From contig NZ_LMXH01000001.1 of assembly GCF_001541095.1 (NCBI RefSeq), forward strand, positions 1,438,048 through 1,502,047: 64,000 bases of DNA, in the 5' to 3' direction. Position 1 is the stretch's first letter. Each line of letters begins with the position of its first letter. Positions 43,343 through 58,471 of the stretch are shown in pieces. A program made the translations under genes and the position numbers. The DNA is from Paenibacillus sp. FJAT-26967. Lineage in GTDB: Bacteria > Bacillota > Bacilli > Paenibacillales > NBRC-103111. Under the pieces are notes generated by a model. That model did no database searches. It saw only the letters and a program-made list of their open reading frames with translations, and was not told where the DNA came from.

Positions 43343-43879
43343 GTGGAATCCAAACGACAAGTTCATAGTCATGAAATAAAAAGTGCCGTGATGCTGAAGC
43401 TTGCTGAAAGAGGTGTACAACTGGAAGATATTGCAGAGATCGTGTTTGCGATGCAAGCTCCGTATCATCCTCATTTAGCTATGGAAGCTTGTCTGCAATC
43501 CATTCATGCGGTACTCGGTAAAAGAGAGCTCCAGCATGCCATTCTGGTTGGAATTGAACTCGACATACTGACAGAGAAGAAGCAACTGTCGGAACCTTTG
43601 CAGTCTATTCTGGAGAATGATGAGAGTCTGTTTGGATGCGATGAAACGCTGGCCATCGGTTCTGTTTTCGGTTACGGTAGTATTGCCCTGACGACGTTCG
43701 GATATCTCGATAAAGAAAAGACAGGAATTATCCGCAGGTTGGATACGAAGACCGGCGGCGCTGTCCATACCTTTCTTGATGATATGGTTGCTGCCATCGC
43801 GGCCGCGGCATCGGGAAGGATTGCTCATAAAAGCAGGGACGAATCGGAGCGGGCAAGCGGCTCTGGAGAAGATGTTTGA
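43343..43879 (+). CDS. pgpA: Phosphatidylglycerophosphatase A-like protein (YutG family)
   Basis: 178 residues; GTG 43343 has GGGGAG 7 bases upstream, preferred to the longer frame at 43274. It shows EIKSAVMLKLAERGVQLEDIAEIV, KRELQHAILVGIELD, LSEPLQSILENDESLFGCDE and GGAVHTFLDDMVAAIAAAASGRIAHKSRD, the last holding conserved acidic residues. Bacillus YutG-type proteins are assigned to the PgpA family, which dephosphorylates PGP to phosphatidylglycerol, although soluble members lack the membrane helices of E. coli PgpA. Confidence 0.8.
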   Translation: MESKRQVHSHEIKSAVMLKLAERGVQLEDIAEIVFAMQAPYHPHLAMEACLQSIHAVLGKRELQHAILVGIELDILTEKKQLSEPLQSILENDESLFGCDETLAIGSVFGYGSIALTTFGYLDKEKTGIIRRLDTKTGGAVHTFLDDMVAAIAAAASGRIAHKSRDESERASGSGEDV

Positions 43880-43986
43880 AGGAATCTGCAAGAAGAATTC
43901 CGTAAAAGTAAATGTTCCATCAATAGCCGCAGGCTGTTTGGGTTATGCTATCCCTAGGCTAATAAACCGTTAACGGAGTGTGGAGC

Positions 43987-44154
43987 ATGCGCTGGATCTA
44001 TTGGGTGAAGCTGTACGACAGCAAATTCCAGGCAGGAGTTCTTGCCAGAAGGATGGAAGAAGACTGGTGGATTTACGGATATGAATGTCCGCGAGAAGTC
44101 GAGATTTTCAAATCCAGAAGAGGCCGATTCGGCGTCAGATATTCCGTGCAATAA
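43987..44154 (+). CDS. Small basic protein of 55 residues
   Basis: Short reading frame starting at ATG 43987, behind GGAGTGTGGAG: MRWIYWVKLYDSKFQAGVLA and, later, WWIYGYECPREVEIFKSRRGRF. It is rich in Trp, Tyr and Arg and has no membrane helix. It looks coding because of its ribosome site, lack of alternatives and protein-like composition, but no family is recognised. It precedes the tRNA cluster. Confidence 0.55.
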   Translation: MRWIYWVKLYDSKFQAGVLARRMEEDWWIYGYECPREVEIFKSRRGRFGVRYSVQ

Positions 44155-44190
44155 CCAAGGAAGAATTGGTCTATAAATTCGAAAAAAAGA

Positions 44191-44238
44191 TTGACTTTAT
44201 AGCTGATCATGTTGTATATTTATTTTTGTCGCTATAAT
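44191..44238 (+). promoter_or_regulatory. Promoter(s) of the tRNA cluster
   Basis: TTGACT (44191-44196) and TATATT (44215-44220) with an 18-bp gap. A perfect TATAAT lies at 44233-44238 with a weaker TTGTAT 15 bp before it, only 10 bp ahead of the first tRNA. Confidence 0.6.
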
Positions 44239-44248
44239 ATAAAATTGA

Positions 44249-44325
<77 letters not shown>

Positions 44326-44363
44326 AATTTTTTTTGCCTGTTTTTAGCGATACAAATTAGCAA

Positions 44364-44437
44364 GGGCCCTTAGCTCAGTTGGTTAGAGCGGTCGGCTCAT
44401 AACCGATTGGTCGGGGGTTCGAGTCCCTCAGGGCCCA
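44364..44437 (+). tRNA. tRNA-Ile with CAT anticodon (lysidine type), possibly elongator tRNA-Met
   Basis: GGGCCCT acceptor stem pairs with AGGGCCC; anticodon CAT; CCA not encoded. The D-arm TTAGCTCAGTTGGTTAGAGC and body resemble Firmicute tRNA-Ile2, whose C34 is changed to lysidine by TilS. Elongator Met cannot be fully excluded from sequence alone. Confidence 0.75.
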
Positions 44438-44443
44438 TTGTAA

Positions 44444-44529
44444 GCCGGAGTGGCGGAATTGGCAGACGCACAGGACTTAAAATCCTGCGGTAGGTGACTA
44501 CCGTACCGGTTCGACCCCGGTCTTCGGCA
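44444..44529 (+). tRNA. tRNA-Leu (TAA)
   Basis: Class II tRNA with a long variable arm (GGTAGGTGACTACC) and anticodon TAA in the loop CTTAAAA. Acceptor stem GCCGGAG/CTTCGGC. CCA is not encoded. Confidence 0.92.
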
Positions 44530-44544
44530 TCAGGGTGAAACCAT

Positions 44545-44599
44545 AAAAACTTCTTTATCTTACCGTGCATTATGCATAGGGGATAAAGAAGTTTTTATT
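44545..44599 (+). terminator. Terminator of the tRNA cluster
   Basis: AAAAACTTCTTTATC and GATAAAGAAGTTTTT form a 15-bp stem, with T-rich 3' flank. Confidence 0.88.
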
Positions 44600-44723
44600 A
44601 TTTTAAGAGATACAAGCAGCCGGATTAGTTTAGCTTGATCGCCTCACAAACATTTCCATGTTAGACTATACCTAGATGTTGGGTAAAGAAGATATAAAAA
44701 ATAGGCCAAAGGAGGCGTATTTG

Positions 44724-45665
44724 ATGTCGATCCCTTTTCGTATTGTATTGGACGAAAATAAAGCAATTCGCGGGGACTTTTATCCTGCGGCTTCCATTTC
44801 CAGAGGTGTACTCATTATCTCTCATGGATTTAAAGGTTTCAAAGACTGGGGGATGTTCCCATATGCGGCGGAGCGGCTAGCCAAAGATGTCGATGTAATC
44901 ACGTTTAATTTTACACATAATGGTGTAGGAGAAGATGGAGAGACGTTTAGTGAACTCGATAAATTCGCTAAGAATACGTACAGCTGCGAGTTAGATGATC
45001 TGTCCACCCTTATTTCAGTTCTTACGGACGAATTTGACTTTAAAAATAAGCTGCTGAGTTCAGACAAAATGCAGCCGGTTATTTTTTATCCGAATCACAG
45101 CCGTGGTCTTAATCTGTTAAATACGGGACCAGATCATGCAGGTTCAGCCAATCCGTTATCTAAGCTGCCGTTCTTTCTTTTAGGACACAGCCGGGGTGCA
45201 GGGGTAAGCCTTATTTACGCTCTTGATCATCCGTCTGAAATCGCAGGCGTCATCAGTTGGAACGGAATTACCCAAGTCGATATTTTTGATGAAGCGACCA
45301 AGAAGAAGATGCGCAAAGAAGGACGCGCATATTTGACCAATTCGAGAACAAATCAGGAAATGCCGCTTGATAAGGTGATTCTGGATGATATAGAAGCTAG
45401 ACAAGCCGATTACAACATCGTGGAAAGAATGCGCGGAGCCCAGTTCCCTGTGGTGCTGATTCAAGGAGAGGAAGACTATGCCCATCTCCGTAAAGGGTCC
45501 AAGAAGCTTGTGGACAGTAATTCCTGTGTGAGCTGGATACAAGTGCCCGGCGGCAATCATACCTTCGGAGCGGTTCACCCTTTTCAAGGTACGACAGATG
45601 CTCTGGAGAAGGCCATTGAACACACCTTGGAGTTTCTTCGCCAGAGGGTTGTTCCAACGGCATAA
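44724..45665 (+). CDS. Alpha/beta hydrolase
   Basis: 313 residues; ATG 44724 has AAAGGAGG 8 bases upstream, so the extension to 44676 is dropped. Alpha/beta-hydrolase fold with oxyanion segment ISHGFKGFKDWGMFPYAAE, nucleophile elbow LLGHSRGAG (Ser), acidic segment IQGEEDYAHLRKG and catalytic His in GGNHTFG. No signal peptide, so cytoplasmic. Resembles family S9-type/esterase-like hydrolases; substrate not known. Confidence 0.82.
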   Translation: MSIPFRIVLDENKAIRGDFYPAASISRGVLIISHGFKGFKDWGMFPYAAERLAKDVDVITFNFTHNGVGEDGETFSELDKFAKNTYSCELDDLSTLISVLTDEFDFKNKLLSSDKMQPVIFYPNHSRGLNLLNTGPDHAGSANPLSKLPFFLLGHSRGAGVSLIYALDHPSEIAGVISWNGITQVDIFDEATKKKMRKEGRAYLTNSRTNQEMPLDKVILDDIEARQADYNIVERMRGAQFPVVLIQGEEDYAHLRKGSKKLVDSNSCVSWIQVPGGNHTFGAVHPFQGTTDALEKAIEHTLEFLRQRVVPTA

Positions 45666-45764
45666 ACGGGAACTGTGACCGTGTGAATGATTATACCGAG
45701 GCTGATTAGGGCAACATAGATCAGTTTTGAAGAATTTATCAAATTTCCGGAGTTATTAAGCAGT

Positions 45765-45794
45765 AAAACCCTTGATTCCTCAAGGGTTCTTTTG
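45765..45794 (+). terminator. Terminator after the hydrolase; near-copy at 58365
   Basis: AACCCTTGA and TCAAGGGTT arms around TTCC, then CTTTT. The 26 bases from 45765 agree with those from 58365 except for two positions, in the same orientation, 12.6 kb apart. Confidence 0.75.
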
Positions 45795-45934
45795 TGTGAT
45801 CTGACCAGGATCGATACCGCAGTCAATTCTGTTAGTGATGCATGGACCCGGTTCCCGCGTTAAGCGGCTTGTTTAGATGTTGGCGTCAGTCTTGCGTTCC
45901 TATAGATACGTTCCAAAGTTTTTCTGGTTACTTA

Positions 45935-46426
45935 TTATTGGTTTAAAGACTCGGTCACTCTTTTATACTTAACAGCTTTACTAAATACATATCGAACAAG
46001 CGGTCCGACAATTAAGAGTTGTAGAGGGAAAGCAAAAATAAAATTTTTGACTACTAAAGAAAAGTAACTTGTCATTAATGGTTCACCGCTTAAGGCGTTG
46101 GAAAAGTAAGACATTCCCAATCCATAGAGGGACATAAAGAGAACCATTCCGCTCACCATAAAAAATGCAAGGGATAGAATCACATATTCTTTCTTAGATT
46201 TATCAAATGGCAGGGAGAAAGCTAGCTTCTTGGCTACAGGCCCGACAATAAATAATTCCAATAAAGCAGCCGTTATAAAGACAGCGATCAGTTGAATAAG
46301 TAGTTCTTTTAAAGAAATGGTGCTAATCATGCCCTGTGTAAGCAAGTTATAAAATGTCATGAATACAACCATTCCACAGCACATCATCAGGCCAAAATAG
46401 ACCTCTTCTTTCTTAGTTGTCGGCAA
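45935..46426 (-). CDS. DUF2798-type four-helix membrane protein
   Basis: 163 residues from TTG 46426 (AGAGGATG upstream). It contains an internal duplication: each half has the pair of helices plus a conserved ending, FIVGPVAKKLAF in the first and LIVGPLVRYVFS in the second. This arrangement is that of DUF2798 membrane proteins, common in Firmicutes with no known function. It is separated from the CPBP gene by a terminator. Confidence 0.72.
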   Translation of the reverse strand: MPTTKKEEVYFGLMMCCGMVVFMTFYNLLTQGMISTISLKELLIQLIAVFITAALLELFIVGPVAKKLAFSLPFDKSKKEYVILSLAFFMVSGMVLFMSLYGLGMSYFSNALSGEPLMTSYFSLVVKNFIFAFPLQLLIVGPLVRYVFSKAVKYKRVTESLNQ

Positions 46427-46523
46427 TTTACATCATCCTCTCTGATTACCTTTGTTATTATAAAGATAGTGGAGGTCTTCACATAAGTGAATATTTTGTG
46501 AACGTTCTGAATAGGGGCACACA

Positions 46524-46553
46524 AACAAAAAAGCCGACCCATATGGACCGGCT
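46524..46553 (-). terminator. Terminator after the CPBP gene (minus strand)
   Basis: AGCCGGTCCATATGGGTCGGCT followed by T-run, read on the minus strand. Confidence 0.85.
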
Positions 46554-46575
46554 AAAGGGAAACGCTACACATGTA

Positions 46576-47286
46576 CTAGAGAACACCTGGACCATAAGCA
46601 GATCGGTCGTTTTCGTTATTTAGTATCTTTTGTATCCCAATGATCTTCAGATCATACAAAATGTGCAAAATGACCGGAAGCAGCAGGCTGCCTGTTATAA
46701 AGTATAACCATGCCATCACAGCTCCGAATACAAAAGATGACAGAATGCCGGCCAGCCCTTGAGAAAAGTGTATAAGTCCAAACACAAGGCTTACTATAAC
46801 TGCACTGGCAAGGGAAGAGATTCCCCAGTGCTCCACTCCGTAGTTGTACAGGAAGCCCCGATATAAAATCTCCTCTGTTATGCCTACCGTGATCGATACC
46901 CATACAAATAGCCTGCGCTGGCGCTCTGTAGCAGGGAAGGTATGCAGCCTTTTCTCGTAACTCTTGGCTGCTTCTTTCCGTAAGTTTCTATTGTATCTTA
47001 GCAAGATCAGAGGAACCACATTGACTATGAGCAGGTATATAAGAGCTGCAGATAGCAGCGTGTGCCCCATCCAGCCCAGCTTTAAGGAATGCCGGACCCA
47101 ATAAACGGAAGGATCAATCAATAGAACAGGAAGTGCAGCTATCCAGTAAACACCATGAAGTATTAGGTATGCCTGCTCCTTGGAAGCCTTAGATGCCATA
47201 CGCTTGAGACGCCGCTGTTCAAGGAATCCGCTGATAGGAATAACCAAGCTTATATAGATTGCAATAAGATGCCAAGCAACATCCAT
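46576..47286 (-). CDS. CPBP-family intramembrane metalloprotease (MroQ/Abi type)
   Basis: 236 residues with about seven membrane helices. Family motifs: EEILYRGFLYNYG (motif 1, the Glu pair), FGLIHFSQGLAGILSSFVFGAVMAW (motif 2, catalytic His) and LLLPVILHILYD (motif 3, His). CPBP proteins process prenylated proteins or small peptides. In Staphylococcus aureus the CPBP protease MroQ is needed for AgrD processing and peptide signal output; here the gene is divergent from an agr-like cassette, with two shared palindromes between them. A matching role is a direct hypothesis. Confidence 0.85.
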   Translation of the reverse strand: MDVAWHLIAIYISLVIPISGFLEQRRLKRMASKASKEQAYLILHGVYWIAALPVLLIDPSVYWVRHSLKLGWMGHTLLSAALIYLLIVNVVPLILLRYNRNLRKEAAKSYEKRLHTFPATERQRRLFVWVSITVGITEEILYRGFLYNYGVEHWGISSLASAVIVSLVFGLIHFSQGLAGILSSFVFGAVMAWLYFITGSLLLPVILHILYDLKIIGIQKILNNENDRSAYGPGVL

Positions 47287-47313
47287 TTAAAGGGTCCTCT
47301 CTTGATCTAAAAT

Positions 47314-47365
47314 TAATACAATGTATTATAAATACAAGTGGCTTTATATAATACAAAGTATTATA
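47314..47365. promoter_or_regulatory. Pair of palindromic operators between the CPBP gene and the agr-like cassette
   Basis: Two copies of TAATAC-N3-GTATTA: one at 47314-47328 (centre AAT) and one at 47347-47365 (TATAATAC AAA GTATTATA). Their centres lie 35 bp apart. The second one includes a TATAAT (47362-47367) that can serve the rightward genes. Duplicated symmetrical sites in a divergent promoter region suggest a dimeric repressor or activator; the HTH protein at 47403 is the nearest candidate. Confidence 0.6.
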
Positions 47366-47402
47366 ATGCAGATATCAAATAAATGGAACAAGGGTGGTGT
47401 CA

Positions 47403-47621
47403 ATGAATAACGAGCGCCCTCGAATACCGCCATTGTGCGGCACTAAGGAAGTGGCTGAATTACTAGGGATAACTCGTCAGAACGTTCCAAACACAAGAAA
47501 AACAAAAGGGTTTCCAGATCCGATAACCCATATAGGCAAGAGGCCGTTTTGGCTTGAATCAGATATATTAGAATTCAGAGATAAAAGAAATCATCGTAAA
47601 AGTGAGGGTATCTTAAGATGA
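47403..47621 (+). CDS. Small HTH DNA-binding protein (AlpA/MerR-like)
   Basis: 72 residues. ATG 47403 lies 8 bases after AGGG; the GTG at 47394 is too close. The segment CGTKEVAELLGITRQNVPNTRKTKGFP followed by GKRPFWLESDILEF is a winged HTH of the AlpA/excisionase class. It overlaps the next gene by ATGA, so it is translated with the agr-like membrane protein. It may bind the palindromes upstream. An origin as a phage regulator is possible. Confidence 0.7.
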   Translation: MNNERPRIPPLCGTKEVAELLGITRQNVPNTRKTKGFPDPITHIGKRPFWLESDILEFRDKRNHRKSEGILR

Positions 47622-48319
47622 GTGTATACATGGGGAACTTATTGCTGCTAATTATCAAGATACTGGGTTTATCATCTTTTGTTATCATGACCTTCACAAT
47701 ATTCAAAATCCCCTTGCGGGAAAATCATAAAAGTATCGCTGCAATGGGAATGATTCTGGGGACAGTCGGTTACTACATCAAAAACATTTTAAATTCACCC
47801 TTGTACTTTATTTTCTTGATAGCTGGCTTTACTGTACTGCTCATGGTAATCAGGCGTTATCCCATCTTGTACTGTTTACTTATAAGTCTTATCGGATTCG
47901 GTGCTTCAACCATTGTGGATACGATAATATCTTTTACAAATATGGGCTTAAACTTGGCGACAATTGAACAAATGAAATACGATTTTAACACCAATATAGC
48001 TTTAAATATTGCTTATACAGGCTGCTGCTTACTCATAGCAACGATCTTGCATACATTTAAATTAGGATTTTCATTTATCGTTCGAAGGTTTTCAGGGACC
48101 AGAACCATTCTTAAGCCGCACAATTTTGTGTGGGCTATGCTGTTGATCGCAGGGGCTCTGCTCACACATATTTTTATTGTATCTAATAATGAAGAATACC
48201 ACACGTATCTCCTGGTTGGTATCTTAATCGTATTTGCGGCTAGTATCCTATACTCTTTCTTGCAGAATAAAAAAGTATTGAAAGACCGTTACCCTAAAAC
48301 TGGGGGAATTGATTCTTGA
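47618..48319 (+). CDS. Seven-helix membrane protein, AgrC-sensor-like but without kinase
   Basis: 233 residues. It has seven hydrophobic helices (about 6-30, 40-60, 65-82, 85-110, 126-148, 170-190, 195-215) and a short cytoplasmic tail. Its size and place just before agrB recall the sensor domain of AgrC, yet no DHp or ATP-binding kinase domain follows: the frame stops after KDRYPKTGGIDS. Start ATG 47618 and end overlap both neighbours, so the three genes form a tight unit. Function is inferred only from position and topology; it could be an immunity or transport factor. Confidence 0.6.
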   Translation: MSVYMGNLLLLIIKILGLSSFVIMTFTIFKIPLRENHKSIAAMGMILGTVGYYIKNILNSPLYFIFLIAGFTVLLMVIRRYPILYCLLISLIGFGASTIVDTIISFTNMGLNLATIEQMKYDFNTNIALNIAYTGCCLLIATILHTFKLGFSFIVRRFSGTRTILKPHNFVWAMLLIAGALLTHIFIVSNNEEYHTYLLVGILIVFAASILYSFLQNKKVLKDRYPKTGGIDS

Positions 48320-48846
48320 GCATGACTGAAAAAATAATCGGATTCGTCGAAAGCAATGCTGACAATCCTGAATCTACGGCAATTTTAAGATATGGTTTAC
48401 GTATTGCAATAGAAACAGCAGCGGTAGTGATCCCGGTAATCATTCTGAGTATAATAACCGGTCAATTTTTAGAAGGTCTGGTTTCGACAGCGGGGTTTTT
48501 AATTCTTCGCTATTTAAGCGGGGGGCTGCATTTTAAAAAAGCTTCTACATGCAATATCATTTCAATAATTATTTTAATAATTTCCATTTCAATACCTGTA
48601 CCATTTTACAATGTTGGTTGTATCATGACTGTAGCAGCAGGAATAATTTTGTTCCTTACAACTCCCAGTAATACGAACCGGAGGCGTCTTGACCCGAAGT
48701 ACAATCCTTTGCTTAAGATAATCGCCGCAGGAATGGTAAGCATTAATTTTATCGTTGAGTCGTCTGTCTTATCGTTAACTTTTTTTATTCAGGCTCTCAC
48801 TACACTTCCCCTCTTTTGGAAGCTATTCGATACATACAAAAACTAA
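48316..48846 (+). CDS. agrB: AgrB-family peptidase/exporter for cyclic peptide signal
   Basis: 176 residues from TTG 48316, whose TTGA overlaps the previous stop (ATG 48322 is an alternative). Membrane cysteine endopeptidase that trims the C-terminal tail of AgrD and closes the thiolactone. The family core is RYLSGGLHFKKASTC: catalytic His72 and Cys79 are seven residues apart, exactly as in S. aureus AgrB (77 and 84). Four or more helices surround it, and a basic stretch NRRRLDPKYNPL stands between helices. The AgrD-like peptide gene starts 19 bp downstream. Confidence 0.88.
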   Translation: MSMTEKIIGFVESNADNPESTAILRYGLRIAIETAAVVIPVIILSIITGQFLEGLVSTAGFLILRYLSGGLHFKKASTCNIISIIILIISISIPVPFYNVGCIMTVAAGIILFLTTPSNTNRRRLDPKYNPLLKIIAAGMVSINFIVESSVLSLTFFIQALTTLPLFWKLFDTYKN

Positions 48847-48865
48847 CGAGAGGAGGTTGTACGAA

Positions 48866-48991
48866 ATGAAAACATTTCTGGCGAATGCAGTTAACAAGGC
48901 TTTAAAGATGGTCGCGAGAAGAGCGACGGATACTGGCTGCACATTTATCTGCCATAATCCGGAAGCGCCTGATGAACTCTTTTCAAAGTAA
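48866..48991 (+). CDS. agrD: AgrD-like cyclic-peptide precursor
   Basis: 41-residue reading frame with AGGAGG 9 bases before ATG 48866. Three parts match AgrD: an amphipathic basic leader (MKTFLANAVNKALKMVARRA), a core ending in Cys25-Thr-Phe-Ile-Cys29, and an acidic tail HNPEAPDELFSK. The tail aligns residue for residue with the S. aureus tail DEVEVPKEL (P-x-E-L at the same place), which predicts a five-residue thiolactone CTFIC, equivalent to CDFIM of AIP-I. The last ring residue is a second Cys. The N-terminal cleavage site is not certain (perhaps near residues 19-23). Confidence 0.85.
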   Translation: MKTFLANAVNKALKMVARRATDTGCTFICHNPEAPDELFSK

Positions 48992-49093
48992 TCCCCAATA
49001 AGTTCCTGTCTGAAAGAGGCGGGCATCTGTAACTACAAAGCAGACTTCTTCTAAGGATGCGGGAAGACAGTGGAGATATCGATAATACGTTAG

Positions 49094-49146
49094 TCCAATA
49101 AGAAAAAGGAACACGCTCCCGAGGGAAGTGTTCCTTTTCTTATTGG
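49094..49146. terminator. Terminator after the agr-like cassette
   Basis: CCAATAAGAAAA..GGAACAC and GTGTTCC..TTTTCTTATTGG form a very long stem over a GCTCCCGAGGGAA loop. Works in both directions. Between 48992 and 49093 nothing else is visible. Confidence 0.85.
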
Positions 49147-49211
49147 CAGAGATTAAGTCTACCAGCAGAAGCATTCGTTGTGGCGCCGCTGTGGTTTATT
49201 TTGATTGATAT

Positions 49212-49544
49212 TCAAAAATTTTCTTCAAACTTAAAAAATTTGAGGAATGACTTATGTCGGGCTTTATTGGCCTGCTTTAAATCTTCCAGGTTAACCGCGT
49301 GCATAATCCCTTTGTGCGACATGTGGCGTTTTACAAGTTCGAAGCAGGCTTGCTCTTGAGTTTCCAGGTCTAGTTGTGCATTGAGCATAATCCGGTAAAC
49401 TCCTGGCAATGTCTCCATGTAAGAGCCTGCTATGATGTCCATATCATCCGGGCAACTGATCCGAATCCCCAGGTGCCTGGCCGCTCTATAGGGACAATTA
49501 ATCGATATCTCTTCAAATACGGCTTTAATAGATCTGTCAGACAT
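49212..49544 (-). CDS. Unknown 110-residue protein; may be a degenerate ImmA/IrrE-like partner of the XRE repressor
   Basis: Lies downstream of an XRE repressor gene on the same strand, the arrangement of immR-immA in mobile elements. The segment VYRIMLNAQLDLETQEQACFELVKRH resembles the strand-helix region that holds the HExxH motif in ImmA, but the first His is Phe and spacing differs, so it would be inactive as a metalloprotease. The relation is tentative. The C-terminus is basic and aromatic (ARHKSFLKFFKFEENF). Confidence 0.5.
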   Translation of the reverse strand: MSDRSIKAVFEEISINCPYRAARHLGIRISCPDDMDIIAGSYMETLPGVYRIMLNAQLDLETQEQACFELVKRHMSHKGIMHAVNLEDLKQANKARHKSFLKFFKFEENF

Positions 49545-49656
49545 AATTACACACTCCCCGGGTTATTGTTTTAAAACATCTGGTCATGATGATGATCTGG
49601 GAGCGTATCTACGACAAGATGTTAATACAATAGGTGTTAGTTAAATATAACACACG

Positions 49657-50067
49657 TTATTTAGAATTTCTTCCTTTTTTTTCTTCTTCTAGGTCATTTA
49701 AGAATGTATATCGCATATAACCCATAACTTGTCTTAGTTTTTCCTCTGTTACACCCTTCGAACGAAACAAATTTTCCGTCTCAGAAATAAATCTCTTATA
49801 CATCAGTTGTTCTTCCTCAGAAAGACCATCTACCGTATTTTCATCCCTAAGCGGTGATTCAGTTCGTCCTAGAAGGTAGTCGGTAGTTACATTAAATAAG
49901 TCTGCAGCTTTAACCAGTAACGGATATTTTGGGGTTGCGCCATTCTTGCCTTCAGTTTCATATTTTGAAATACTAACCCTTGAAACACCTAACATTTCAG
50001 CTAAATCATCTTGTGTCCAGCCGCGTTTTTCACGCATCTGTACAAAGCGTTCTGCAAATGAAGACAC
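49657..50067 (-). CDS. XRE/Cro-CI family repressor
   Basis: 136 residues; GTG 50067 behind TAGGAG. The HTH covers about 5-62: FVQMREKRGWTQDDLAEMLGVSRVSISKYE, followed by PLLVKAADLFNVTTDYLLGR, typical of phage and ICE repressors. The C-terminal half (SEEEQLMYKRFISETENLF) is predicted helical and may dimerise. The gene is read from a promoter at 50201-50229 with a palindrome inside it, so autoregulation is likely. Confidence 0.82.
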   Translation of the reverse strand: MSSFAERFVQMREKRGWTQDDLAEMLGVSRVSISKYETEGKNGATPKYPLLVKAADLFNVTTDYLLGRTESPLRDENTVDGLSEEEQLMYKRFISETENLFRSKGVTEEKLRQVMGYMRYTFLNDLEEEKKGRNSK

Positions 50068-50106
50068 TAGGACTCAACTCCTAAATTGAAATGTAAACGT
50101 TAGTTA

Positions 50107-50229
50107 TGGTTAGGTAACCAAAAGTAAAGTGCTATGATTCACTCATCCTTAACGAGTAAATTGAGTGTTCAAATAAATATATTTCCTAATTGATAATTTC
50201 ATTATATGACGTAACTTGTGGTTACGCAA
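50107..50229 (-). promoter_or_regulatory. Repressor promoter with two palindromic operators
   Basis: Minus strand: TTGCGT (50229-50224), 17-bp spacer, TATAAT (50206-50201). CGTAAC-N5-GTTACG (50210-50226) fills the spacer and -35, so a bound repressor would block RNA polymerase. A second palindrome TGGTTA-GG-TAACCA is at 50107-50120, inside the leader. Both share GTTA/TAAC half-sites. Confidence 0.6.
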
Positions 50230-50235
50230 TTGCGG

Positions 50236-50440
50236 TTTAGTGATCAAAAATACAATGCCGTCAGGCTATGCATATGCAACCGTTACAGGATGCGGTGATC
50301 GTTTTACTTCACCTAACGTTTCGGTACTAGCGGGCAATATACAACATCAATTTTTCTGAAAGCGGGCTGCTCTTATCAGGTTAATCTTTACAATTATTCG
50401 GGCGGCACCTCAAAAGCTTACCTGAATAACTGGTATAATT
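50236..50440 (+). pseudogene. Fragments of a phage structural-type gene
   Basis: Two short translated pieces in different frames (one with SGYAYATVTGCGDRF, the next with FLKAGCSYQVNLYNYSGGTS and an ending YLNNWYN) have a protein-like pattern but no start and are separated by a frame change near 50350. They look like the 3' remnant of a tail-fibre-like or surface gene. Low certainty. Confidence 0.3.
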
Positions 50441-50455
50441 AGTCCCTATACGAGG

Positions 50456-50487
50456 TGAAGGTCACTCAAATGAGTGGCCTTTTTTAT
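50456..50487 (+). terminator. Terminator in the phage remnant
   Basis: AGGTCACTC and GAGTGGCCT arms around AAAT, followed by six T. Confidence 0.8.
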
Positions 50488-50509
50488 ATTAGATCAGGAG
50501 GGGTTAAAA

Positions 50510-50635
50510 ATGGAGCAGCCGATAGGAATGATTATGAGGATGCTACTAGAGGGACAGATCACGATTAATCAAGCACGAGGGATAGCAGGGATGGAGCCTT
50601 TAAAGGAGACCGGCGCGGACCGGGTTTCTCCGTAA
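50510..50635 (+). CDS. Small ORF (41 residues), possible phage peptide
   Basis: ATG 50510 stands 7 bases after a strong AGGAGGGG. The sequence (MEQPIGMIMRMLLEGQITIN then ARGIAGMEPLKETG) is not recognised. It follows the 50456 terminator, as small late phage genes often do. From 50636 to 50839 nothing else is visible. Confidence 0.4.
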   Translation: MEQPIGMIMRMLLEGQITINQARGIAGMEPLKETGADRVSP

Positions 50636-50839
50636 GCATCCTTTATGCAAGCATTGCCATGACAACGGCAGGCTGACAGCGGCAACGCTGACGTTTAACC
50701 TCTGAATATGAGAATACCTCATCAAATAATAAAGTTGGTCAAATCATGGCTGTTTACTGTCACCGACACGAACAAAACGTTTCAGCGTTCTGCATATTCT
50801 TGTTAAACTAACGAGCAGTTTAGCTCAGAGATCTAGCAA

Positions 50840-50867
50840 TTGATAAGAAATATTAGAAGCATATTAA
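50840..50867 (+). promoter_or_regulatory. Putative promoter of the DUF1569-like gene
   Basis: TTGATA (50840-50845), 16-bp gap, TATTAA (50862-50867); a TATAAT also lies just after. Confidence 0.4.
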
Positions 50868-50910
50868 TATATAATGAAGAAGCTAGAACACACTAATGGA
50901 GGATTTTGTC

Positions 50911-51360
50911 ATGAATAATATTTTTAATCATATGCATGCAGTGGAAATTTTAAACCGTACCGACAGACTCGCCCCGAGTTCTCAACCGCAATGGGGAACA
51001 ATGAGTGTTGCTCAAATGCTGGCTCACTGTTCATCATTCCAAGACATTGCAATGGGGAATTCTTTTCCGCCGAGAGGTTGGTTAGGGTTATTTATAGGAC
51101 CATTTGTGAAGTCCGTTTTAACTAACGATAAGCCTTTGGCTCGTAATATGTCCACTATTCCAACTATTATGATAGTGGATGAAAGAGAGTTCGAACAAGA
51201 ACGGGAAATACTGAAGCAAAAAATTATTACCTTTCAATTTAATGGTCCTGAGAAGTGCACTACTCACCCTCATCCATTTTTCGGAAGGCTTACTTCAGAG
51301 CAATGGGGCAAAGGAATCTTTAAGCACCTAGACCACCACTTAAATCAGTTTGGAGTCTAA
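50911..51360 (+). CDS. DUF1569-type protein (DinB-like fold)
   Basis: 149 residues; ATG 50911 behind GGAGG (the in-frame ATG 50896 lies too far upstream). Sequence features: LNRTDRLAPSSQPQWGTMSVAQMLAHCSSFQDIAMG, THPHPFFGRLTSEQWGKGIFKHLDHHLNQFG. The spaced His residues (HCSSF, HPHPFFG, HLDHHLNQFG) resemble the metal-binding pattern of DinB-like helical bundles. No biochemical role is known. It appears intact, unlike its surroundings. Confidence 0.72.
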   Translation: MNNIFNHMHAVEILNRTDRLAPSSQPQWGTMSVAQMLAHCSSFQDIAMGNSFPPRGWLGLFIGPFVKSVLTNDKPLARNMSTIPTIMIVDEREFEQEREILKQKIITFQFNGPEKCTTHPHPFFGRLTSEQWGKGIFKHLDHHLNQFGV

Positions 51361-51651
51361 GATAACGTCTTGGACTGACAGGATCATTAAAAGGCGCATT
51401 AATGTTCACTAAGCTCACAAATGCAGCCGACCAGAACGCTCGCTCGACTCTGCTTCTTTACGAGTATTCAGAGAAGGACGATGATTGACGGTATAGCGTA
51501 AAAGTGATTAAGCTAAGTGGGAGACGAAAGCTCAATTAACCGCCTTTTCACAAAGGCGGTTTTCTTATGGTCACAAATCAACATTAGTATTTAACATAGC
51601 CTTAATCAAAAGGCAGGAGGGGGCAAATCCTTCCCGGACGTTTTCTGATAG
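51361..51651 (+). other. Non-coding stretch with one terminator
   Basis: No gene seen. A terminator at 51538-51566 (AACCGCCTTT and AAAGGCGGTT, then TTCTTA). From 51617 the G- and C-rich sequence with AGGAGGGGGC looks like the start of a phage gene cut off by a stop at 51649-51651. Confidence 0.6.
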
Positions 51652-51885
51652 ACCGCGTCCCCCTTAAATCGCGTAAAAACTCGTATTTTGAAATTTTCAG
51701 AGACTTTGCATATTCCAAATGAGATAATAAAGCAACTCGGAGATTCCTTGGATGGCCTATACAGAAAAGGTGTGATCACGGACTATAGCTGGGCTGAAAA
51801 AGCTTATACTCGGAAGCTCAAGAAATCGGAACTTACTTGGCTGAATACGATTATTACTGCTCGTAAAAATGGAGTTGAAGTATGA
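51652..51885 (+). pseudogene. C-terminal fragment of a phage-like gene
   Basis: Frame open from 51652, with TTG 51688 as the only possible start and no ribosome site. The product part (LGDSLDGLYRKGVITDYSWA, then KLKKSELTWLNTIITARKNG) is similar in layout to the fragment at 54165-54359 (LQDALSKLQKAGVIDSPDYW): a helix, a V-I-turn and a Trp/Tyr. Such segments end several phage lytic or structural proteins. Probably the remnant of a larger gene. Confidence 0.4.
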
Positions 51886-51935
51886 ACGAAGCCCCGTAAC
51901 CTTTATAGGTCGCGGGGCTTTTTATTTATTACGGC

Positions 51936-53300
51936 TCAATTATGATTACTTTTTTTAGATTTTCTAAAAAACACTATGGCGACACCTAATGTAAAAATAT
52001 CTGCTAATGGGATAGAAAAAAATATTGAAAATGGAGGGCTTATATTTAAAATGTTTTGTTTGCTAAAAATGTATGGTAATAAGATCATGAGTGGCACAAC
52101 TGCAATGACTTGTCTTGTAATTCCAAGTATTACGGCATGTATTTCTCTTCCAGTAACCTGTAATAATGTCATGATCGTATAAGTAATACCAAGTAGGGGA
52201 AATGTAATGAAAATTACCCTTATAACATCCATAGTCGACACTAGAATAGACATATCAGATGTAAATATATGAAGTAAGTGATTGCCGAACATATAAATTA
52301 CAAGAGTAATTCCAATACCATAAATAAAAGAATAGTGTATTGTTCTACTTACAGTCATATTCTTTTTTGCTAATTCCTTTTTACCATCATAGTAAGCAAT
52401 AATGGTTTGAACTGCTTGTGTAATTCCAATTATCGGCATTAACATAAGAATATACATCTTATTAGCAATATTCCAAACGGATATATGTGAATTTCCACCT
52501 ATCGTAATCAGCTGATGATTGACGATAAATGCAGAAACTCCAGCCAACATTTGTATAGTAGTTTGAGCAAAACCTATTTTAAACATCTTATAAGACATAA
52601 ATAAATGTTCTTTAACAGATAACCTAGTAATGGAAAACCATAATTTATTTTTAACAAGATAAACAACCGAGATAAAAGCACATACTAGTTCACTGATTAA
52701 CGTACCTAAAGCAATTCCAGTAATACCTAATTGAAAGCCGAATGTTAAAATTGCATTAAGAATAATATTTATTACAACTGAGAGAGTAATAATAATTGCT
52801 TCTGCTTTTGGTTTACCAAAAGCGCGGATAGAACTTGTCAAGGTATATCCAATTGAACTAAAAATATTACTGAATAGTATGATTTTTAAATAATCATGGG
52901 CAAGCATATATACTTCTTCTTTAGCACCTAGAATAAGTAATAACGGCTCCAAAAAAAATAATACTATTAGGGAAGTGCCTATACTAACAATTAAAGTCAT
53001 TATAAATCCACTCTGAAAGTATTTATTTAACTTCAGATTATCGCTACGGCCTAAATACTTTGAAATCATGATTGCTGTTGAAATAGCAAAGAGCGTCTGC
53101 AGCGATACAAAGATTGCAAGCAGGGGAGATAACAATCCTATTGCTGACAATGCACTTTCACTTTGATTTCCTAGATGACCTGCAAAAGAAGTATCAACAA
53201 CTGTGGTCATGGTTTCAATGATTAAGGAAAATATCGCCGGGAACGAAAAAGTAAATATTAATTTATTTACTGAATAGCTTTCATATATGCTCTTATTCAT
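51936..53300 (-). CDS. MATE-family multidrug efflux transporter
   Basis: 454 residues with twelve helices; ATG 53300 has GGAGGG upstream. MATE features: FTFSFPAIFSLIIETMTTVVDTSFAGHLG at the N-terminus and a similar repeat near residue 230 (FKIGFAQTTIQMLAGVSAFIVN), plus SSIRAFGKPKAEAIIITLSVVINI. Proton- or sodium-driven export of drugs or small metabolites. Base composition is clearly more AT-rich than in neighbouring core genes. The regulator gene upstream (53355) is on the same strand, 54 bp away; together they look like a transferred unit. Confidence 0.88.
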   Translation of the reverse strand: MNKSIYESYSVNKLIFTFSFPAIFSLIIETMTTVVDTSFAGHLGNQSESALSAIGLLSPLLAIFVSLQTLFAISTAIMISKYLGRSDNLKLNKYFQSGFIMTLIVSIGTSLIVLFFLEPLLLILGAKEEVYMLAHDYLKIILFSNIFSSIGYTLTSSIRAFGKPKAEAIIITLSVVINIILNAILTFGFQLGITGIALGTLISELVCAFISVVYLVKNKLWFSITRLSVKEHLFMSYKMFKIGFAQTTIQMLAGVSAFIVNHQLITIGGNSHISVWNIANKMYILMLMPIIGITQAVQTIIAYYDGKKELAKKNMTVSRTIHYSFIYGIGITLVIYMFGNHLLHIFTSDMSILVSTMDVIRVIFITFPLLGITYTIMTLLQVTGREIHAVILGITRQVIAVVPLMILLPYIFSKQNILNISPPFSIFFSIPLADIFTLGVAIVFFRKSKKSNHN

Positions 53301-54643: not shown

Positions 54644-54856
54644 CTAATCTTCAATCCACTCATATAAATCATCCATATTACAATCTAAAGCAACCGCAGA
54701 CATCTTCATTTTAATGACAGAAAGCTTTCTTTCTCCTGCGATGACTTTTGATATAAATGATTCCGAAAGCTTTATCCGTCGGGCTAATTCTGCTTGTGTC
54801 ATTTCTGCTTTCGTTAAGAGCTGAGGTAAACGGCTTCTCCCTATACGGAGCGCCAA
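54644..54856 (-). CDS. Small Cro/CI-type HTH protein
   Basis: 70 residues; TTG 54856 with GGGAGG 9 bases upstream. HTH: QLLTKAEMTQAELARRIKLSESFISKVIAGERKLS, followed by AVALDCNMDDLYEW, the pattern of short YozG/Cro-like regulators in phages. Appears complete. Confidence 0.72.
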   Translation of the reverse strand: MALRIGRSRLPQLLTKAEMTQAELARRIKLSESFISKVIAGERKLSVIKMKMSAVALDCNMDDLYEWIED

Positions 54857-55343: not shown

Positions 55344-55784
55344 CTTGTCTATATCGCTAGCTTTTCAATTACAGAGCGGACGTATTCTTCAAATATTAGT
55401 GACCAGACAGCAAACATTGCCGTTTATAACACGGACATGGTCAACATGCGCCTGGATTATTGTAACCGTATTGAGCAAGCGGTTCGGCGGCTGCCGCGGC
55501 TTGAGCAAAGGTTGATCGAATGCCGGTATATGGGGACGGATTCGGACTACATCACAAATTACAATGTCTTTAATGAGCAACTAAACCCACCTATGAGCGA
55601 GACAAAGTACACGGGTATAAGAGGCAGGGCATTTTATAAAATAGTACTTTTCCTGATTGATTCAAAGGTCATCAAACCGGAGGCAGTTTTTAAAGAAACT
55701 GAATCATTGGAGGTCAATATACGGAAACACTTGGCGAGCTGCTTGCTGTATATCGTGAGGAAGCGGATAAAATTCGCACTTTAG
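55344..55784 (+). pseudogene. ArpU-family phage regulator, truncated copy 1
   Basis: Continuous frame from 55344, with ATG 55437 as the first start. The segment SNISDQTANIAVYNTDMVN, then RLEQRLIECRYMGTDSDYIT and ERKY-like PPMSETKYTGIRGRAFYKI match ArpU-type late transcription regulators of phages. The expected N-terminal part is missing, and after 55643 the sequence differs from the second copy. The C-terminal residues (SLEVNIRKHLASC...) are probably read in the wrong frame of a following fragment. Confidence 0.6.
55371..55643 (+). repeat. 273-bp direct repeat, copy 1 (arpU)
   Basis: Nearly identical to 57855-58126, about 2.5 kb away and in the same direction. Differences are a few substitutions and one base fewer in copy 2. 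Confidence 0.9.
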
Positions 55785-58398: not shown

Positions 58399-58471
58399 TG
58401 ACCTGAGCCGGGCTCGAACCGACGACCCCCACCCTGTCAAGATGGTGCTCTCCCAGCTGAGCTATCAGGTC
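58399..58471 (-). tRNA. tRNA-Val (GAC)
   Basis: Minus-strand cloverleaf: acceptor GACCTGA/TCAGGTC, D-arm GCTC..GAGC, anticodon loop TTGACAG giving GAC, T-arm with GGTTCGAGC. A TCCA follows the discriminator instead of an exact CCA. Confidence 0.9.

Follow-up and report, generated by a model that had tools for sequence, protein, structure and literature searches.

Peptide signalling genes of the agr (accessory gene regulator) type have been described in bacterial chromosomes and in temperate phages. In Staphylococcus aureus, the AgrD precursor is served by AgrB, with its His/Cys pair, and by MroQ, a CPBP protease with EExxxR and FxxxH motifs (PMC10482373; here and below, comparisons with published systems draw on excerpts of the cited papers), while the kinase AgrC and its partner AgrA complete the classical locus. 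Among temperate phages, phiCDHM1 of Clostridium difficile carries agr genes and encodes an AgrC with a HATPase domain, and kinase-less membrane proteins beside AgrB/AgrD, regarded as possible AgrC homologues without HATPase, are already known from the Brevibacillus phages Davies, Emery and Abouo (PMC3901668). Here we analyze an agr-type cassette in a 64,000-nucleotide stretch of Paenibacillus sp. FJAT-26967 (contig NZ_LMXH01000001.1, positions 1,438,048 to 1,502,047 of the forward strand; hereafter the window, in whose coordinates positions are given unless a locus is named), which combines AgrB and AgrD with a CPBP protease, a seven-transmembrane (7TM) protein and a small helix-turn-helix (HTH) protein. 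We consider it very probable that this agr cassette derives from a phage, works without a kinase and encodes its own autoregulator. A literature search at the level of titles and abstract openings of open-licence papers, and hence no proof of absence, returned no description of it other than that of the phage cassettes in PMC3901668.

LytTR regulatory systems provide a second point of comparison: a membrane protein inhibits a regulator encoded just upstream, and in HdrRM and BrsRM of Streptococcus mutans the regulator gene is followed by the membrane-protein gene, the promoter is autoregulated and no phosphosignalling is known, an organization resembling that of the window (PMC6193735). The HdrRM and BrsRM regulators, however, are LytTR activators acting on direct repeats, whereas the window has a small HTH protein, palindromes in a repressor-like position and agrBD within the unit (PMC6193735). 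As its regulator is HTH_17-like, the window locus does not belong to the LytTR regulatory systems.

The original prediction, made from the letters of the window alone, described a CPBP gene and, divergently, genes for a small HTH protein, a seven-helix protein, AgrB and AgrD, the three larger of which overlap or nearly touch, and ended the unit at agrD. Family matches recovered all five genes in place, but that right-hand limit was drawn too early, as a hairpin and two further genes, neither of which had been noticed, form part of the recurring unit (open reading frames, ORFs, were called with a longest-ORF script):

46576-47286, minus strand: Rce1-like CPBP intramembrane protease, transcribed away from the cassette (Pfam Rce1-like, E 5e-20)
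47403-47621, plus strand: small HTH protein of 72 aa, or 75 aa if it starts at GTG 47394 (HTH_17, E 0.0016, below the Pfam cut-off)
47618-48319, plus strand: 7TM protein (PHROG 'membrane protein', 1.5e-5; AlphaFold model, mean pLDDT 86.6)
48316-48846, plus strand: AgrB cysteine peptidase with H72 and C79 (Pfam AgrB, 2.3e-19)
48866-48991, plus strand: AgrD precursor, 41 codons (NCBIfam TIGR04223, 28.6 bits against a cut-off of 19)
49095-49146, no strand: strong hairpin formed by inverted repeats, a probable two-way terminator between the convergent AgrD and ImmA-like genes
49212-49544, minus strand: ImmA/IrrE-like protein of 110 aa, lacking HExxH, the presumed partner of the XRE repressor
49657-50067, minus strand: XRE (Cro/CI-type) repressor (Pfam HTH_3, 1.2e-13; PHROG transcriptional regulator, 1.2e-23)

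The HTH and 7TM genes, and the 7TM and AgrB genes, overlap by 4 nt each, and 19 nt separate AgrB from the AgrD start. Catalytic residues are retained: H72 and C79 of AgrB are invariant in a three-sequence alignment, and the CPBP protein keeps both EExxxR (EEILYR) and FxxxH (FGLIH). By the NCBIfam MroQ equivalog model (24.6 bits, cut-off 270) the latter is not an MroQ orthologue; it is expected to remove the AgrD leader. AgrD falls below the cut-off of the Pfam AgrD model (14.9 against 22.7 bits), and the 7TM protein has no NCBIfam match and a best Pfam match of only E 0.46. The hairpin region (49085-49160) has a folding energy of -29.6 kcal/mol (z -5.6). In contrast to S. aureus agr (PMC10482373), no AgrC or AgrA was found near the locus, a small HTH gene overlaps the 7TM gene, the precursor has a C-x3-C core and immunity-type genes are attached.

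The source genome (5.46 Mb, 18 contigs) belongs to a close relative of Paenibacillus lutrae. Profile searches covered the family (104 genomes) and the order (392 genomes), with matches to the 7TM family (E <= 0.001) in 54 and 236 genomes, respectively; these are counts of genomes with any 7TM match rather than of cassettes. Neighbourhood tables were built for fetched loci, mostly the better matches, and our classification covers these fetched places. We term the order CPBP/small DNA-binding gene/7TM/AgrB/AgrD 'type B', and found it at 13 loci in 11 genomes: the window, L041 (P. lutrae), L004, L042, L043, L044, L045, L046, L047, L048, L050, L051 and L161. The window and L041 represent one locus in two species, L042 is almost a copy of L043, and several places were fetched more than once (L002 is the L004 place, L003 and L007 are the L041 place, and L036/L037 come from the IMG/VR entry for L004). 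L004 is a second type-B copy in the source genome, on another contig, with the same five genes followed by the 110-aa and XRE genes; its 7TM, AgrB and 110-aa proteins are 33%, 39% and 40% identical to those of the window.

These loci stand apart from 58 other loci with a 7TM gene beside AgrB. A CPBP gene lies within 3.5 kb, always divergently, at 13/13 type-B loci (22/58 of the others, three of them divergent), EExxxR and FxxxH are present in all 12 type-B CPBP copies aligned, and the ImmA-like gene adjoins 12/13 type-B loci but none of the 58. Since the 71 loci, like a further set of 70, were preselected for 7TM beside AgrB, the constancy of that linkage cannot be read from them. In an AgrB tree of 73 rows, all 13 type-B sequences fall into one group of 17 (support 98/97), the other members being L049, L052, L053 and L163. 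The neighbourhood check proposed with the original prediction is thereby borne out, the five genes being conserved together at 13 loci, as is the absence of AgrC and AgrA beside the cassette: with half of one GHKL kinase as query, a GHKL-like kinase was detected within 5 kb of 0/13 type-B loci and of one of the 58 others (L180), 1/71 overall. The AgrC kinase and AgrA of a classical agr locus were not found here.

Comparison of the source genome with P. lutrae, a single species pair, gave ratios of nonsynonymous to synonymous substitution (dN/dS) of 0.014 for the ImmA-like protein, 0.030 for 7TM, 0.031 for the HTH protein, 0.038 for XRE, 0.209 for CPBP and 0.21 for AgrB; the ratio did not exceed 0.21 in any of nine genes compared and ranged from 0.014 to 0.21 in the seven cassette and immunity genes for which it is defined. 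AgrD, over 40 codons, shows three synonymous and zero amino-acid changes. These low ratios indicate that the cassette is under purifying selection and, with 13 loci sharing the gene order, argue that this order is not due to chance.

The predicted product of the window AgrD is a ring, CTFIC, upstream of HNPEAPDELFSK, and the mature peptide, judging from the families of the processing enzymes, is probably a CTFIC-centred thiolactone. A C-x3-C core is found in AgrD at 13/13 type-B loci (CTFIC, CWWGC, CFLGC, CWFGC, CYIFC, CWFAC, CWIGC, CWLAC, CYWLC, CMFIC); it is shared by L049, outside type B (CAGIC), whereas other AgrD cores differ (CVIV in L099, CFFS in L066, SISV in L083). A conserved second cysteine at the C-terminal position of the ring seems unusual, and it might give the product a disulfide or a free thiol.

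The divergent promoter between the CPBP and HTH genes (47287-47402) contains a pair of palindromes:

47302-47329, plus strand: candidate promoter TTGATC-16-TATTAT from a consensus scan, its second hexamer overlapping operator 1; weak by itself
47314-47328, no strand: predicted operator 1, TAATACAATGTATTA, a palindrome also present in P. lutrae
47347-47365, no strand: predicted operator 2, TATAATACAAAGTATTATA, a palindrome 35 bp from operator 1, also present in P. lutrae

The promoter scan itself gave no excess over shuffled sequence. The motif AATACNNNGTATT occurs twice in the 64 kb, against 0.05 expected in shuffles, and the 15-nt pattern TAATACNNNGTATTA has no exact copy elsewhere in the 5.46-Mb genome; with one mismatch allowed it recurs at nine other places, and a reversed control pattern is commoner. 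Across type B, the palindromes change with the small protein. Loci with a PPLCG-type HTH protein (window/L041, L045, L046) carry ATACAAWGTAT-like palindromes, while those with an MGTEEAA-type HTH_17/HTH_59 protein (L042, L043, L044, L048, L051) carry GACCGNNNNCGGTC pairs 35 bp apart, with GACCGATATCGGTC as the predicted sites for the L042/L048 protein; in L161 the pair is a GCCCG variant spaced by 38 bp, and L050 has a degenerate site only. Outside type B, GACCGNNNNCGGTC was found once, in L081. One L042 site lies within the 17-bp spacer of TTGACG/TAGTAT, and those of L043, L044, L048 and L051 are placed alike, a repressor-like position. In a test for repeated palindromes, 8/13 regions passed (<=1 of 300 shuffles reaching the score). 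The test mis-delimited the L051 region, owing to an upstream start codon, and missed sites in L045; a matrix scan shows sites in both, but its matrices were built from such sites and the result is circular. Against a background of five single-base shuffles, matrix scans detected no further sites clearly above background in other loci, barring a possible third in L161 and two moderate ones in L045, well away from XRE. In L004 and L047 the position of the small HTH gene is taken by a different small protein, which by eye resembles ribbon-helix-helix proteins (with weak Pfam support), and the L045 protein has no Pfam match at E <= 0.1.

Because each class of small protein comes with its own kind of palindrome, this protein is probably the autorepressor of the cassette. 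The original prediction, which ran the output of the system through this protein, holds insofar as it is a probable regulator of the cassette promoter; the predicted operators cluster at its own promoter (genome-wide for the window sites, in the fetched loci for the others), which makes it look like an autoregulator and not like the route to distant outputs. A role in regulating distant genes was considered and rejected, the exact window sites occurring only at its own promoter in the whole genome. It is conceivable but highly improbable that the protein is instead a phage excisionase with no part in regulating the cassette: its PHROG matches include excisionase/regulator families (9.6e-7) besides DNA-binding proteins (1.4e-8), yet the operator pairs in the cassette promoter vary with the class of small protein, a different protein occupies the same place in L004 and L047, and the ORFs of the window that were examined showed no obvious integrase.

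The XRE and ImmA-like genes run in one direction, XRE first, and converge with the cassette; the XRE-first order is shared with the ImmR/ImmA, CapH/CapP and IrrE pairs. The ImmA-like protein belongs to the ImmA/IrrE (Peptidase_M78) fold, but in contrast to those pairs HExxH is absent from 12/12 aligned type-B copies, and proteolysis of the repressor is therefore unlikely; the motif is present in L173-L175, classed as ImmA-like from that same profile search. Among 16 strong matches to the 110-aa family (E < 1e-15), 12 adjoin a cassette and four (L167-L170) do not, two of the latter (L167 and L168) having an XRE neighbour. As these four pseudo-ImmA genes come without agr genes, the immunity part exists on its own. 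In P. lutrae, an ORF for a 121-aa secreted-looking protein follows XRE (L003 7125-7490), of which only a disrupted remnant is left in the window (~50216-50359).

A phage origin, which the original prediction had missed, is indicated by neighbouring genes and by the site of insertion. Phage genes adjoin 7/13 type-B loci (L004, L042, L043, L046, L048, L050, L051): RecT is present beside L004, L043, L048, L050 and L051 (PHROGs) and L042 (Pfam), L046 has a Bro-N/KilAC antirepressor (Pfam), and PHROG matches add RecE and DnaB at L004, a tail-fibre gene at L050 and a tail-protein-like gene at L051. The L004 copy is catalogued as a viral contig in IMG/VR. At the end of the cassette opposite to the XRE and early genes, DNA ligase (L042), Ku (L050) and amidase (L051) genes are found. 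In the window, the cassette lies in an island bounded by tRNA-Val sequences:

45765-45819, minus strand: copy of the tRNA-Val 3' end, a probable attachment (att) repeat and left edge of the island (blastn E 2e-8; 82% identity over 57 aligned columns)
45935-46426, minus strand: membrane protein of 163 aa (90.8% identical in P. lutrae; dN/dS 0.127)
54644-54856, minus strand: Cro-like HTH protein, probable prophage remnant (Pfam HTH_26, 1.8e-9; PHROG repressor, 2.1e-8)
55437-55784, plus strand: phage transcriptional-activator-like gene (phrog_248, 4.3e-7; no Pfam match at E <= 0.01), probable prophage remnant
58399-58471, minus strand: tRNA-Val(GAC) (ARAGORN; repeat), probable integration site and right edge of the island

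The repeat, found with the tRNA-Val and 150 nt downstream of it as blastn query, sits just after a hydrolase gene. Three sister genomes (G058, G060, G061) share the genes flanking the island: the stretches fetched from G060 (L217) and G061 (L216) contain neither the tRNA repeat nor the cassette, and G058 has only a CPBP fragment together with two extra partial tRNA-Val copies (L215 9123-9203 and 9698-9764), which suggest repeated integrations at this tRNA. The window copy looks, on this evidence, like part of a decayed prophage. If the cassette and the genes of MATE-like and HTH_11 type are set aside, the only clear phage-family matches among the island proteins scanned are regulatory, PHROGs matched none of three other small ORFs, and the island does not amount to a functional temperate phage with integrase, structural and replication genes. 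An Rfam scan of 43800-52000 returned only three tRNAs.

A decaying island of this kind, and the lone CPBP fragment of G058, would also be expected if the genes were phage leftovers without a present role, passengers in a crumbling immunity region. That explanation is very unlikely in view of the dN/dS values of 0.014 to 0.038 for the ImmA-like, 7TM, HTH and XRE proteins, of an AgrD unchanged over 40 codons, and of the island of P. lutrae, which measures only ~5.4 kb yet accommodates the complete cassette together with the XRE/ImmA-like pair and two or more small genes. By these sequence comparisons, the cassette and the immunity pair appear to have been kept by selection while the surrounding phage decayed.

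These findings can be assembled into a model in which an agr-type peptide circuit without a kinase arrived with a temperate phage. AgrB and the CPBP protease would, to judge from their families, mature AgrD into a small thiolactone; the small HTH protein, bound to the paired palindromes, would repress its own operon and probably the CPBP gene as well, as the covariation of operators and regulators suggests; and the 7TM protein, on binding the peptide, would directly change the activity of the HTH protein and so establish positive feedback. In the parent phages the circuit adjoins XRE and pseudo-ImmA genes and, given this position, would most likely inform the lysogeny switch; in the source genome the phage would have decayed, with the cassette and immunity pair kept by selection. 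We give the entire chain, from a 7TM protein directly controlling a DNA-binding partner to a circuit informing the XRE/pseudo-ImmA switch, roughly an even chance of being right. Overall, the observation behind the original prediction is confirmed and its interpretation partly upheld: the cassette and its co-occurrence stand, while an output route to distant genes through the HTH protein looks doubtful and the unit is larger than described.

Several observations weigh against this model. Contact of the 7TM protein with the peptide and with the HTH protein is something we infer; its profile gave no hhalign match to the sensor of an orphan GHKL kinase of the same genome (represented by a single sequence), and Foldseek and VIA searches of its model against the PDB gave no informative match; kinship to AgrC sensors is conceivable all the same. 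Matches to the 7TM family without an adjoining AgrB gene occur at L069, L072, L074, L076 and L078, and many loci have extra 7TM copies. Five of the 13 regions (L004, L045, L047, L050, L051) did not pass the palindrome test, L047 is a type-B cassette without an ImmA-like gene, and six of the 13 loci have no identified phage neighbours (L041, L044, L045, L047 and L161 were not searched). Matrix scans of the XRE and early promoters showed no operator clearly above shuffled background; the link to the immunity switch is therefore positional only, and direct control of the switch by the small HTH protein is not supported.

The orphan GHKL kinase, encoded with a LytTR response regulator on contig C14 of the source genome (L198 4135-6169), belongs to this side of the balance too, as it could hear the peptide; P. 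lutrae has a version of the kinase with 94% identity, and those of G051, G071 and G084 are 74-79% identical. An unlinked pair of the AgrC/AgrA type might thus be the sensor, with the 7TM protein helping AgrB in export or maturation and the HTH protein merely setting expression. The pair is unlinked to AgrB, the two AgrB genes of the genome lying on other contigs; G045, which like G081 lacks strong HATPase_c_5 matches yet has weaker kinase matches, shows one (E 1.1e-9, C34:62173-63390) beside a LytTR gene (C34:63839); and the 7TM gene, overlapping with AgrB in the window, is its direct neighbour in most fetched loci. In G013, however, which has two type-B cassettes, HATPase_c_5 (E <= 1e-15), LytTR (E <= 1e-8) and the orphan kinase were all without a match, and G017 likewise has neither an orphan-kinase match nor HATPase_c_5 at E <= 1e-15, though it encodes three LytTR proteins. 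Because G013 has two cassettes without a strong match to an AgrC-class kinase or LytTR, an unlinked kinase pair is not a general requirement; together with the single GHKL-like kinase near 71 7TM-AgrB loci, this makes the unlinked sensor unlikely. The original prediction had named an agrCA pair elsewhere, responding to this peptide, as evidence that would count against it. On this criterion the outcome is mixed, as one unlinked GHKL/LytTR pair does exist in the genome, and G013 does without a strong match: an AgrCA-like pair is not the likely receptor in general, but could still hear the peptide here.

The layout of HdrRM and BrsRM, with the regulator directly upstream of the membrane-protein gene (PMC6193735), lends itself to a different explanation, namely that the 7TM protein is an inhibitor tethering the DNA-binding protein and senses a cue other than AgrD, while the AgrBD peptide acts on other cells or phages. 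LytTR partners in other members of the family, tandem 7TM arrays and 7TM genes without AgrB would fit such a role. The frequent 7TM copy directly upstream of AgrB, on the other hand, is most simply explained by a shared ligand, and we think it improbable that the tethering account is the right one. Tandem 7TM paralogues stand upstream of the 7TM-AgrB pair at L063, L064, L066, L085, L093 and other loci outside type B, where they might provide a broadened repertoire of receptors or of immunity functions.

With the phages Davies, Emery and Abouo the window shares the 7TM-AgrB-AgrD core in a temperate-phage setting (PMC3901668). In Davies, Emery and the Paenibacillus phage Harrison, however, a LytTR-like gene follows AgrD (over the Pfam cut-off in Harrison, below it in Davies, Emery lying outside the scan), profiles detect no CPBP or ImmA-like neighbour, and AgrB falls elsewhere in the tree. 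Their AgrD-like peptides (Davies, L038 6516-6644; Emery, L039 5527-5643; Harrison, L040 6444-6572) contain no cysteine and, for that reason, may not form a thiolactone. A tblastn search detected no close relatives of the L004 7TM protein in phage records; an AgrB query led to phages with divergent 7TM genes.

Eleven proteins were scanned with the Pfam LytTR model. In nine related loci, AgrD or AgrB is followed by a gene for a LytTR protein of ~112-134 aa with no receiver or other domain, in seven cases over the Pfam cut-off (Harrison gp41, E 1.2e-6; L171, 2.8e-13; L180, 1.5e-10; L080, 1.9e-8; L075, 4.2e-8; L179, 3.2e-5; L172, 4.4e-5) and in two, Davies gp48 and L178, below it. In L060 (6056-7903) and L064 (4388-7565), Pfam shows LytTR fused to GGDEF-EAL, which suggests that an agr-type peptide may control cyclic-di-GMP there; other 600-aa proteins in 7TM-AgrB loci were judged by eye to start similarly. 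At L064, an NAGPA gene follows the fusion gene. The common theme, as far as gene content goes, is 7TM and AgrB, usually with an AgrD-like ORF, and a receiver-less DNA-binding protein, with no kinase found.

For the Paenibacillus order as a whole we put forward, with somewhat less than even confidence, that kinase-free agr systems are widespread, the 7TM protein acting on a receiver-less partner (small HTH, ribbon-helix-helix-like or LytTR), and that phages use a thiolactone as a lysogeny signal through XRE and pseudo-ImmA. In arbitrium, the AimR-AimP system of SPbeta-like phages, a linear peptide is imported and bound in the cytosol by its receptor AimR. Phage-encoded peptide communication would be common to arbitrium and to the circuit proposed here; no AimR-like receptor was matched among the scanned proteins, in which no search aimed at it was made.

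With clear operators, small genes and many natural variants, the circuit should be directly testable in B. subtilis. If the model is correct, phages would possess, besides arbitrium, another route to count lysogens, by means of a cyclic peptide made by agr enzymes, and agr-type quorum sensing would be possible without a histidine kinase, one membrane protein signalling straight to a repressor.

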